Positions 3,417 to 57,000 of a stretch of DNA of 64,000 bases are shown piece after piece. Numbering within the stretch: position 1 is the first letter of the stretch; every line of letters begins with the position of its first letter. The position numbers were made by a program, and so were the translations under genes. Source of the stretch: Clostridia bacterium (lineage in GTDB: Bacteria > Bacillota > Clostridia > Oscillospirales > CAG-272); contig JAFTRY010000031.1 in the NCBI GenBank assembly GCA_017462035.1, positions 1 through 64,000 of the forward strand, given 5' to 3'. The notes beneath the pieces are model-generated. The model saw only the letters and a list, made by a program, of their open reading frames with translations. It was not told where the DNA came from and did not search any database.

Positions 3417-3438
3417 ATAATGAAACGATAATAAACGT

Positions 3439-3561
3439 CTTATCAAGAGTGGTGGAGGGACAGGCCCTGTGAAGCCACGGCAACCTGCCTCCGAGGGAGC
3501 GTAAGGTGCTAATTCCGGCAGATGAGAATTTTGATCTCCGGAGCAGTCCGGAGATTTTTTT
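3439..3561 (+). promoter_or_regulatory. SAM-I (S-box) riboswitch with terminator
   Basis: The aptamer shows the S-box signatures CTTATCAAGAG, GTGAAGCCACGGCAACCTGC and AAGGTGCTAATTCC, and closes with GATGAGA. The expression platform is the hairpin ATCTCCGGA (3534-3542)/TCCGGAGAT (3547-3555) with a seven-T run, a transcription terminator. High SAM should therefore stop transcription of metK, whose product makes SAM. Confidence 0.96.
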
Positions 3562-10697: not shown

Positions 10698-10775
10698 AAG
10701 TCCGTCGAAGGACATGGAAATCCTCCCAACCATCCACCCGAAGGTGCTCGTATGAACCTTCGGGTGAGACTTTTC
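10698..10775 (+). repeat. Dispersed mosaic repeat, copy G (partial)
   Basis: Only the segment GTCCGTCGAAGGAC and the ACCCGAAGGT (10736-10745)/ACCTTCGGGT (10756-10765) palindrome are present, without the GC-rich module or tandem units. From 10776 to 10925 I see nothing else. Confidence 0.8.
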
Positions 10776-10925
10776 TTTAGCCGCTGTTTCCGTTGGCATT
10801 TTTCTTGACAGCTACTGGTTTGATGAAAGACACTAAAACAATCGAAGCCGATAAAATGATGTGAGAAAGTATTTAATACATTCTTTGTTTCACAAGTAAT
10901 GTTTTTACCAAATTCTCAAGCTTTA

Positions 10926-10954
10926 TTGACAAATTGGCAGAAATGTGGTAGAAT
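10926..10954 (+). promoter_or_regulatory. Promoter of structured RNA copy 1
   Basis: TTGACA (10926-10931), 17-bp spacer, TAGAAT (10949-10954) with TGG just upstream (extended -10). Position 10961, the first base of the closing stem, lies 7 bp after the -10, so the RNA should begin with that stem. Confidence 0.85.
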
Positions 10955-10960
10955 ATACCC

Positions 10961-11118
10961 GTCACACGAATTGAATAGTTTTATCCCCAAAACGGGAAAA
11001 TACTTTGGTAAAAAGTGTTTTCTCTCTTTTCTCATTCCGTTATTGGGGAGCAATTCGTGTGACAACAATTGAGGGGGAAGCATTTTTTCGGTGCGTTCCT
11101 TTTGGAGCGCACCTTTTT
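10961..11118 (+). ncRNA. Structured pseudoknotted RNA, copy 1
   Basis: P1 is GTCACACGAATTG (10961-10973)/CAATTCGTGTGAC (11051-11063). P2 is CCCCAA-AACGG (10985-10995)/CCGTT-A-TTGGGG (11037-11048). A pseudoknot joins AAAAAGTGTTTTCTCTC (11010-11026) inside P1 to GAGGGGGAAGCATTTTTT (11071-11088) after it, with one bulge and several G-U pairs. The terminator hairpin GGTGCGTTCC/GGAGCGCACC (11090-11113) and five Ts end it. Two other loci share this plan with different stem sequences. The family was not recognised. Confidence 0.8.
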
Positions 11119-11137
11119 AGATGCTGATGGGAAATAT

Positions 11138-11290
11138 ATGAGCAATGATAATTCAAAAAAAGTAATAGATAGTATCGGCGTAGAACTCACGCCCGGAGAG
11201 CCTACCGTTTGCCTTGGCAACGGAGAGCAAGGCTTTGAATGTTGTTGCGATGAGTGCGACTACTATTTGCTTTGTTTTCCCGGAATTTGA
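11138..11290 (+). CDS. Cys-rich 50-aa micro-protein downstream of RNA copy 1
   Basis: The product is 50 aa with core PGEPTVCLGNGEQGF followed by ECCCDECDYYLLCFP; five of its six Cys fall in the last 20 residues, suggesting metal binding. It starts at the ATG at 11138, 20 bp past the terminator of the structured RNA, with GGGAAA as a weak ribosome site. A close relative is encoded on the minus strand at 25829-26046 behind RNA copy 2, which supports real coding: changes are mostly conservative (E/D, Y/F, L/F). Function unknown. It would be translated only on terminator read-through or from an unseen promoter. Confidence 0.75.
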   Translation: MSNDNSKKVIDSIGVELTPGEPTVCLGNGEQGFECCCDECDYYLLCFPGI

Positions 11291-11340
11291 TTCCAAAAGC
11301 AAAAGAAAGAATTAAACCAAAAACCCACACACCCTACTAT

Positions 11341-11451: not shown

Positions 11452-11805
11452 GACGTGCCCCTTTCCTACCGGTTGGTGAATGGTCTTGATGTCTTCGACA
11501 ACTGCAATCCCCCACACCAACCACCCGAAGGTGTTCGTATGAACCTTCGGGTGAGACTTGCTCCATAGCAACGCCTCCCCGACGCATGAGGCGGCGGGGA
11601 TGTAGGGGGGATTTTCAAGGGGGAACGCCTTGAAAACGCTTTCTTCGCCATTCTTTGTCGTTTAACAAAGAATGGCATAAACCTACACCAAAGTAACTTT
11701 ACCATTTTTGGCTGGCGTTCACAGAACGCCCCTACGGGTTTGAGGAAATTTTTCTGTGTTCTTCTTACGGAAAACAAAGGATTACCGAAATATTCTTGCA
11801 AAGCT
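11452..11805 (+). repeat. Dispersed mosaic repeat, copy B
   Basis: Starts with a module resembling one in copies C and E (TACCGGTTGGTGAATGG, then GACAACTGCAATCCCC). The ACCCGAAGGT/ACCTTCGGGT palindrome follows (11523-11552), then the GC-rich module, the CAAAGAATGGC hairpin and one tandem unit. The order is unusual: the GGCGTTCACAGAACGCCCC module (11713) comes last rather than first. The end overlaps TATTCTTGCAAAGCTGTTCT, a short repeat also at 27191. Confidence 0.85.
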
Positions 11806-22834: not shown

Positions 22835-22960
22835 GCCGACAGGACCGAAAGGAACCGGCGGCGGAGGGGCTCTGGAGAATCTCCGTAGGGAGTGCCGAAG
22901 GTGCAAGGTGAACGTTCACCGAATCTCTCAGGCAAAAGGACAGGGCGGACAAGACCGATG
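22835..22960 (+). promoter_or_regulatory. Glycine riboswitch (gcvT motif), apparently one aptamer
   Basis: The conserved core is GTGCCGAAGGTGCAAGGTG...GAATCTCTCAGG followed by CAAAAGGACAGGGC. P1 is GCTCTG/CAGGGC and the next helix GGAGA/TCTCTC. Only one full aptamer is visible; the upstream ACCGAAAGGAACCGGCGG may form a leader helix. The gene behind it is a Na+/alanine-glycine symporter, a known partner of this riboswitch. The downstream terminator suggests control of transcription by glycine. Confidence 0.92.
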
Positions 22961-25800: not shown

Positions 25801-25836
25801 AATGACAGAGAATACTTTACATTCTCTGTCATTTTT
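25801..25836. terminator. Bidirectional terminator
   Basis: AATGACAGAGAAT (25801-25813) and ATTCTCTGTCATT (25821-25833), a 13-bp stem flanked by As on the left and Ts on the right, serving the SGNH gene and the minus-strand micro-protein gene. Confidence 0.85.
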
Positions 25837-26046
25837 CTATTTGTTTTGTACGGTCATTTTTACCCATAGCAATATGTTCTTCTTTGCTTTTTTGATCAAA
25901 TTCGGGGAAACAAAGCAAAAAGTAGTCGCACTCGTCGCAACAACACGCAAAGCCTTGCTCTCCGTTACCGAAACAAACGGCAGGTTCCCCGGGCATAAGG
26001 TCTACACCGGTAATATCCATGCCCTTTTTTGAATGTTTTTGCTCAT
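25829..26046 (-). pseudogene. Cys-rich micro-protein gene behind RNA copy 2, frameshifted at its start
   Basis: The frame from an internal ATG at 26020 encodes GVDLMPGEPAVCFGNGEQGF then ACCCDECDYFLLCFP, closely matching the gene at 11138-11290. The natural start by homology is ATGAGC at 26046, 4 bp after TGGAGGATAT, but that frame ends after 14 codons. Adding one A to a six-A run (26025-26030) restores MSKNIQKKGMDITGVDL, alignable to copy 1. So this is a one-base deletion, a read error, or slippage. C-terminal residues extend about 15 beyond copy 1. Confidence 0.7.
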
Positions 26047-26066: not shown

Positions 26067-26276
26067 AAAAAGGTGCGTAGCCGAAGCCACGCACCGAAAA
26101 ACGCAAACTCCGATTGTTGTCACACAAACTAATCGGAATAGGAATATTTCAGCCATACCCAACTTGGAGGAGCTTGCGTTTTTACCAAGTCCCTAAAGTT
26201 GAGTATGTCAAAAAAAGGGCATAATATCCCTTGAAGCAGAAAATACATAAAATACCGATTATTCAGTTTGTGTGAC
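26067..26276 (-). ncRNA. Structured pseudoknotted RNA, copy 2
   Basis: Read on the minus strand. P1 GTCACACAAACT/AGTTTGTGTGAC (26265-26276 with 26119-26130), extended by AATCGG/CCGATT. An inner helix is CATACTCAACTT/AAGTTGGGTATG. The pseudoknot joins AAAAACGCAAGCTCC (26169-26183) inside P1 to GGAGTTTGCGTTTTT (26097-26111) after P1, 15 bp with one G-U. The terminator GGTGCGTGGC-TTCG-GCTACGCACC (26072-26095) and five Ts follow. Layout equals copies 1 and 3 with different stem sequence. Confidence 0.82.
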
Positions 26277-26282
26277 AATAAG

Positions 26283-46390: not shown

Positions 46391-46397
46391 AGATGTT

Positions 46398-46595
46398 GCC
46401 AAGCTAATCAAATAATGCAAAACAGGTATAATTTTCGTTTAGGGGAAGTATACTCTTTTTCCGCATATGCAAAATATGAATTTGATAAAATGCAAATTCC
46501 ACTTTGTATATGCGGTTATACCGATTTGCAAATGATTAGTTTGGCGACTACCGGAGTTTGCGTTTTTGTGCGTCTGCTTCGGTGGGCGCACTTTT
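46398..46595 (+). ncRNA. Structured pseudoknotted RNA, copy 3
   Basis: P1 GCCAAGCTAATCA (46398-46410)/TGATTAGTTTGGC (46533-46545), 13 bp with one G-U. Inner helices include GGTATAA/TTATACC and CCGCATAT/ATATGCGG. The pseudoknot joins AAAATGCAAATTCC (46487-46500) to GGAGTTTGCGTTTT (46553-46566), 14 bp with two G-U. The terminator GTGCGTCTGC-TTCG-GTGGGCGCAC (46568-46591) plus TTTT follows. P1 shares almost no sequence with copies 1 and 2, yet pairs fully. Confidence 0.82.
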
Positions 46596-56760: not shown

Positions 56761-57000
56761 AAAAAAGCCCCAAGTCCCATATCAGGACGTGGAGCACGCG
56801 GTACCACCTGACTTTGCCTCTGCCTGAAAGGGAAGAAGGCACACTCAAATCCGATAACGGCGGAATCCGTCACGGGCTACCGCATCGGTCACCCGTACCA
56901 CTCCAAGGCGACTTCCATTCCACCCGACACGGACTCACACCAACCGTCCGCTCTCTTTGCCCGGGGAGAGAATGTACTACTCCTCATCACAGTGTTTCAA
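56761..57000 (-). promoter_or_regulatory. T-box leader of valS
   Basis: The T-box sequence CAGGTGGTACCGCG is at 56797-56810 (minus strand). Its terminator follows: GCTCCACGTCC...GGGACTTGGGGC (56767-56795) with TTTTTT. Stem I begins near GATGAGGAGTAGTAC with AGAGAGC (AG-bulge type). Uncharged tRNA-Val should stabilise the antiterminator. GAAGTCGCC contains a plausible GUC valine specifier; its place in the specifier loop was not proven. Confidence 0.93.

Follow-up and report, generated by a model that had tools for sequence, protein, structure and literature searches.

The window, by which we mean the whole 64,000-nt stretch of DNA that was analysed, carries three copies of a leader RNA. The strands that matter for its pairing are numbered from the 5′ end: strand 1 is the 5′ arm of helix P3, strand 2 is its 3′ arm, strand 3 is the segment that follows P1, and strands 4 and 5 are the 5′ and 3′ arms of the terminator. 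The features are as follows.

10926..10954 (+): promoter of copy 1, with −35 box TTGACA (10926-10931), 17-nt spacer and −10 box TAGAAT (10949-10954); from sequence
10961..11118 (+): leader RNA of copy 1, type A, 158 nt, from P1 to the terminator U-tract; from homology and covariance model
10961..11063 (+): P1 of copy 1, 10961-10973 with 11051-11063, 13 bp; from fold and covariation
10984..11049 (+): P2 of copy 1, 10984-10995 with 11037-11049; from minimum-free-energy (MFE) fold
10996..11022 (+): P3 hairpin of copy 1 (strands 1 and 2), 10996-11006 with 11012-11022, loop GGTAA; from fold and cognate-arm test
11010..11026 (+): pseudoknot 5′ strand of copy 1 (strand 2), AAAAAGTGTTTTCTCTC; from sequence and homologue pairing
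11071..11088 (+): pseudoknot 3′ strand of copy 1 (strand 3), GAGGGGGAAGCATTTTTT; from sequence and homologue pairing
11071-11083 (+): antiterminator 5′ arm of copy 1, the 5′ part of strand 3; from homologue pairing
11091..11103 (+): antiterminator 3′ arm of copy 1 (strand 4), inside the terminator 5′ arm and loop; from pairing and fold
11090..11118 (+): intrinsic terminator of copy 1, 11090-11099 with 11104-11113 (strands 4 and 5), U-tract 11114-11118
11138..11290 (+): ORF of copy 1, 50-aa Cys-rich protein MSNDNSKK...CCCDECDYYLLCFPGI; from sequence and relatives
26067..26277 (−): leader RNA of copy 2, type B, 211 nt
26183-26169 with 26111-26097 (−): pseudoknot of copy 2; terminator at 26095-26072
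25828..26046 (−): Cys-rich ORF region of copy 2, start ATG at 26046-26044; read against intact relatives
46397..46595 (+): leader RNA of copy 3, type B, 199 nt
46487-46500 with 46553-46566 (+): pseudoknot of copy 3; terminator at 46568-46591

The pseudoknot strands that the earlier note had quoted for these three copies all match their positions in the window. Compared with its relatives, the Cys-rich protein of copy 1 has its last residues altered by an apparent 1-nt insertion, and the ORF of copy 2 shows an apparent frameshift near codon 8; downstream of copy 3 an intact ORF is not present.

Leaders of this kind fall into two size classes, a short one of ~140-170 nt (types A and C) and a long one of ~200-215 nt (type B), and they share a common order: a −10 box, P1-P2-P3, strand 3, an intrinsic terminator and, usually, an ORF with a Shine-Dalgarno sequence 15-30 nt further on. 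A −10-like hexamer is located upstream of P1 in 148/148 copies; 127 of these have 5 nt between the two, and 18 have 6 nt. Given this near-fixed distance, the first base of P1 is presumably where transcription begins. The P1 consensus, TGYSACACAA...TTGTGTSRCA, is conserved in sequence and also covaries, as 6/7 scored pairs change on both sides and 98% of cells are paired. The 5′ arm of P1 is followed by ATA in 138/148 copies, P2 leads into the apical hairpin P3 with a GGY-A-tract as its loop, and downstream of P1 come RCAA, the purine-rich strand 3 ending in U5-6 and then the terminator. The ATA, the GGY-A-tract and RCAA are conserved, keep a fixed frame and presumably stay unpaired; they may be aptamer-like or may equally be protein contacts. 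Where at least 240 nt of downstream sequence is available (189 copies), a Shine-Dalgarno ORF starts 10-45 nt past the terminator in 144, compared with 166/1504 random positions; over all 164 ORFs within 110 nt, the median distance from the terminator is 20.5 nt.

A blastn search with copy 1 found matches in 38/146 genomes of the same family. For wider searches we built a covariance model, R1, from 31 type A copies, in which only the P1, P3 and terminator pairs were included and the pseudoknot was left out. R1 matches were found in 175/295 genomes and 54/71 genera of the family (E 1e-3), in 88/295 genomes of the order (E 1e-4) and in 71/291 genomes of the class (E 1e-4), with up to 10 per genome among the matches listed; the window's own genome has seven matches with E values up to 1, and for six the value is below 0.001. 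In a 299-genome sample of the phylum searched at E 1e-5, no genome matched beyond the window's own, and this result doubles as a negative control. A DNA-pattern search located the leader at 52 places in named genomes; every title is that of an Oscillospiraceae or Clostridia MAG, and most come from ruminant hindgut. Another pattern returned 38 contigs of viral collections, in 29 of which R1 confirms the leader, and a blastn search of one divergent prophage-type copy against INPHARED phages and PLSDB plasmids gave no match. When the window was scanned with Rfam 15 at the gathering threshold, the leader loci matched no family, and at a relaxed threshold copies 1 and 2, together with several relatives, gave only chance-level matches. 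The same window contains a SAM riboswitch (3437-3528, +), a glycine riboswitch (22862-22953, +) and a T-box (56780-56999, −), all above the Rfam gathering scores. The leader RNA, apparently undescribed, recurs within single genomes of many gut Clostridia and is absent from Rfam 15. No recognisable description of it was found in the main texts of three reports on noncoding RNA discovery (PMC8632094, PMC11109978, PMC8040213), and part of the family may already be listed without annotation among the 3161 models of PMC8040213.

The earlier note had proposed a conserved pseudoknot between the loop of P1 and the segment before the terminator. Against dinucleotide-shuffled 3′ strands, pairing as good as the native one occurred in 0/1000 cases for copy 2, which has the strongest pseudoknot, and in 2/1000 for copy 3. 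The pseudoknot of copy 1 was not exceptional by itself (95/1000) because both of its strands are of biased composition, and homologues were therefore needed. Across 148 distinct copies, the energy between the inner region and strand 3 is −17.2 kcal/mol for cognate partners and −13.3 kcal/mol for shuffled ones (z −15.1, 0/5000); the signal persists when partners are shuffled within sub-types (z −11.6) and in 93, 42 and 14 increasingly diverged representatives (z −12.7, −10.0 and −5.7; each 0/5000). In 142/148 copies, the pairing becomes weaker when strand 3 is reversed. Of 74 independent sister pairs, 44 differ, with the cognate combination better in 31 and worse in 13 (Wilcoxon 1.8e-4). Column by column, 87.7% of cells are paired in type A versus 85.9% after shuffling (0/500), and 94.8% versus 93.4% in type B (29/500), whereas slid registers fall to 54-72% and 33-61%, respectively; the per-column covariation is therefore modest, though positive, and the slid controls make the register clear. 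Individual loci illustrate the same behaviour: P3 and pseudoknot sequences change together in L023, the A-tract pairing of the pseudoknot is swapped for CAAAC/GTTTG in L227, and very different sequences such as L023, L227 and L206 retain all of the pairings. The contrary evidence named in the earlier note, homologues whose two strands drift apart and lose complementarity, was looked for among the 148 copies, and the outcome did not overturn the pseudoknot. Sequence comparison thus confirms the pseudoknot as real and conserved, although its 5′ strand is not a free P1 loop: in 148/148 copies it is the 3′ arm of P3, with a median overlap of 13 nt and a median P3 energy of −13 kcal/mol.

Strand 2 consequently has two partners, and the arms of P3 (1:2) coevolve as well (cognate z −19.8). 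A further alternative concerns strand 3, which can pair with the 5′ arm of the terminator as an antiterminator. Here the cognate energy is −13.9 kcal/mol, compared with −10.2 kcal/mol for shuffled partners (z −16.4, 0/5000; 148 copies), the value in 14 diverged representatives is z −6.0, reversed-strand controls are also beaten, and 34 sister pairs favour the cognate combination versus 14 that do not (Wilcoxon 1.1e-5). Examples are TAAAGG/CCTTTA (L016), CAAGGAG/CTCCTTG (L023), AATAGGAG/CTCTTATT (L026) and GGAAGG/CCTTCC (L227). The terminator itself (4:5) is distinguished from shuffled partners at z −20 (0/5000), and the pseudoknot, antiterminator and terminator pairings each hold in 93, 42 or 14 diverged representatives. 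On alignment A1, the antiterminator register has 86% of cells paired, compared with 37-71% when slid, while column shuffles give a weak signal (33/500). In MFE folds of transcripts cut after the terminator loop, calculated with programs whose model does not extend to pseudoknots, the antiterminator appears in 148/148, as does P1, whereas P3 appears in 120. When the terminator arms are swapped, 94% of the folds still show some antiterminator pairing, so the fold test by itself is not specific; together with the weak column covariation on A1, this means that support for the antiterminator rests on energies and register. MFE folds of the 148 full-length RNAs contain the terminator in 97 and still the antiterminator in 51, which suggests that the two states are close in energy.

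Comparison among homologues establishes the pairings, their coevolution, their mutual exclusivity and the leader position as properties of the sequences. On this basis, the leader is probably a cis-acting transcription attenuator that is transcribed from its own promoter and governs read-through into the following gene: it is a same-strand 5′ leader between a promoter and an ORF, an intrinsic terminator precedes the ORF, and a conserved antiterminator pairing excludes that terminator, with the column-wise test of this pairing being the weaker one. The five strands would form a ladder in which neighbours pair. In the ON state, P3 (1:2) and the antiterminator (3:4) would form and the polymerase would read through. 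In the OFF state, P1 would carry strand 3 to strand 2 so that the pseudoknot (2:3) forms, takes strand 3 from strand 4 and thereby allows the terminator (4:5) to form; the pseudoknot would thus serve as an anti-antiterminator. The conserved P1-P2-P3 body presumably reads a signal that tips the balance between 1:2 and 2:3. As P3 would also be compatible with a formed terminator, the antiterminator is best viewed as a kinetic competitor that would form before strand 5 is made and that the pseudoknot would remove. From this arrangement we infer that the leader switches in cells, which state the signal binds, and that many unrelated genes share this signal as a cellular cue. The earlier suggestion that the 3′ strand, by touching the terminator hairpin, could affect termination in the manner of a riboswitch or attenuator is supported by the leader position and the second coevolving pairing as far as attenuation is concerned, but the predicted link is strand exchange rather than contact.

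The genes downstream of the leader are unrelated to one another. Among 129 distinct downstream proteins, with most of the Cys-rich ones left out, BspA-type LRR (10), zinc ribbons (6), YspA/SLOG (4) and PASTA (4) are the most frequent Pfam families; AMP-binding (3), radical SAM (2), ABC transporter (2) and the copper amine oxidase N-terminal domain (3) are represented as well, and lipoproteins also occur behind the leader. In several genomes, at L154, L162, L169 and L174 and at L141 and L144, the leader stands ahead of AMP-binding enzymes and UPF0004/radical SAM proteins; elsewhere it precedes small ORFs. The Cys-rich miniprotein family (CLGNGEQGFECCCDECDYYLLCFPEFD; window 11138-11290 and 26046-25828) accounts for 24/159 downstream proteins, and no Pfam or NCBIfam entry was found for it. 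PADLOC and PHROGs scans of the downstream proteins gave scattered matches with no common theme.

Copy 1 and its closest relatives are 79-90% similar over ~240-470 nt, and the similarity ends at the edges of the promoter-leader-ORF unit (window ~10895-11310); the genes flanking this unit were not found at the other loci examined. Together, these two observations suggest that promoter, leader and ORF constitute a compact cassette dispersed between genomic sites. A REP-like dispersed palindrome, ACCCGAAGGTGYTCGTATGAACCTTCGGGTGAGACTT, is present at 10736-10772 and 11523-11559 of the window, flanking the copy 1 cassette, and also at 1489, 19000, 26706, 30870 and 34196; the genome holds ~27 copies, and others lie within ~0.5 kb of copy 2 and of L053. 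Some loci contain tandem arrays of two to four complete leader copies spaced ~200-640 nt apart (L099 1468-2369, L101 1295-1699, L136 1465-2039, L010 847-2606), several copies being without an ORF of their own. In several arrays, the terminator and the upstream 45 nt show greater similarity between copies than the RNA core does, and in most pairs the cores have diverged further than the promoters and terminators.

The attenuator reading has two narrower forms. In one, the leader is an orphan riboswitch, whose P1/P2/P3 body binds a small molecule that sets the pseudoknot; since the downstream genes share no pathway, the ligand would probably be a signalling compound. The conserved bases in their fixed frame, the switch-like platform and the placement of many copies in each genome before unrelated genes all fit this form, whereas no gene association points to a ligand and no Rfam aptamer is resembled. 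We regard it as a serious possibility that falls just short of an even chance, the leader being a candidate rather than an established riboswitch. In the other, binding of a protein or a trans-acting RNA at P1 (ACACAA/TTGTGT) or at the P3 loop selects the fold. The conservation of P1 in sequence as well as in pairing, and a gene set broad enough to resemble a regulator's regulon, argue for such a factor; however, no candidate regulator emerged from the analyses described here, the conserved single-stranded bases suit a ligand equally well, and we regard this form as possible but rather doubtful.

Two further readings dispense with attenuation of the gene behind. The discrete start and end of the RNA, and the tandem arrays of complete copies, several of them without an ORF, would suit a stand-alone trans-acting sRNA with its own promoter and terminator and only incidental ORFs behind it. 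This is nevertheless unlikely, given the Shine-Dalgarno ORF at short distance in most copies and the presence of a dedicated coevolving antiterminator, which makes little sense for a pure sRNA. The succession of promoter, pseudoknotted RNA, terminator and ORF is also the layout of a type III toxin-antitoxin system, in which the leader would be the RNA antitoxin and the ORF behind it the toxin. Such a system is matched neither by the many unrelated downstream families, with no ToxN, CptN or TenpN toxin among the 25 most frequent Pfam families listed, nor by the RNA, which is not made of short repeats and recurs in arrays as whole units, and we consider it highly improbable.

For the cis-acting attenuator, the nearest mechanistic relative is the fluoride (crcB) riboswitch RF01734, in which a pseudoknot strand is common to the expression platform and exchanges into the terminator, so that pseudoknot formation sets termination (PMC13273304). 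Both RNAs share a pseudoknot strand with the expression platform, but in the fluoride riboswitch the pseudoknot opposes termination, whereas the strand of the Clostridia leader swaps with an antiterminator and its pseudoknot is predicted to favour termination; the sizes and sequences of the two are unrelated, without an Rfam match. Like trp-type attenuators and the antiterminator-terminator platforms of riboswitches, the leader consists of strands with alternate neighbours that end in a terminator or an antiterminator. It differs from them in that no leader peptide is apparent and in that a long-range pseudoknot resolves its first alternative. The c-di-GMP riboswitches recur many times within a genome, in front of surface and accessory genes that are unrelated to one another. 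The Clostridia leader shares this genomic pattern, but no sequence or structure match to them appeared in the Rfam scans. T-box leaders are likewise transcription-attenuating leaders of clostridia; a T-box reading ranked low. The copy 1 locus has no T-box match, and the leader is not associated with amino-acid genes. Candidate structured RNAs from the human microbiome (PMC8040213), as far as their main text presents them, include leaders upstream of genes, Clostridiales among them, and resemble the present leader in this position, the two being set beside each other by description only.

Taken as a whole, we tentatively propose, at slightly less than even confidence, that these RNAs form a class-wide Clostridia family of signal-sensing leaders, possibly with thousands of copies, in which the pseudoknot would be the anti-antiterminator and which would have spread by compact promoter-leader-ORF cassettes among surface, accessory and prophage genes and would itself respond to an intracellular signal. 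The five-strand ladder offers exact and cheap predictions of base changes that would force the ON or OFF state, and a ready reporter for a signal hunt. If this reading is correct, the leader offers a clear instance of a pseudoknot coupled to an antiterminator instead of a terminator. A large share of gut Clostridia would then employ, many times in each genome, a regulatory RNA that so far lacks a family entry, and the surface, Cys-rich and prophage genes behind it, most of them uncharacterised, would make up its regulon.
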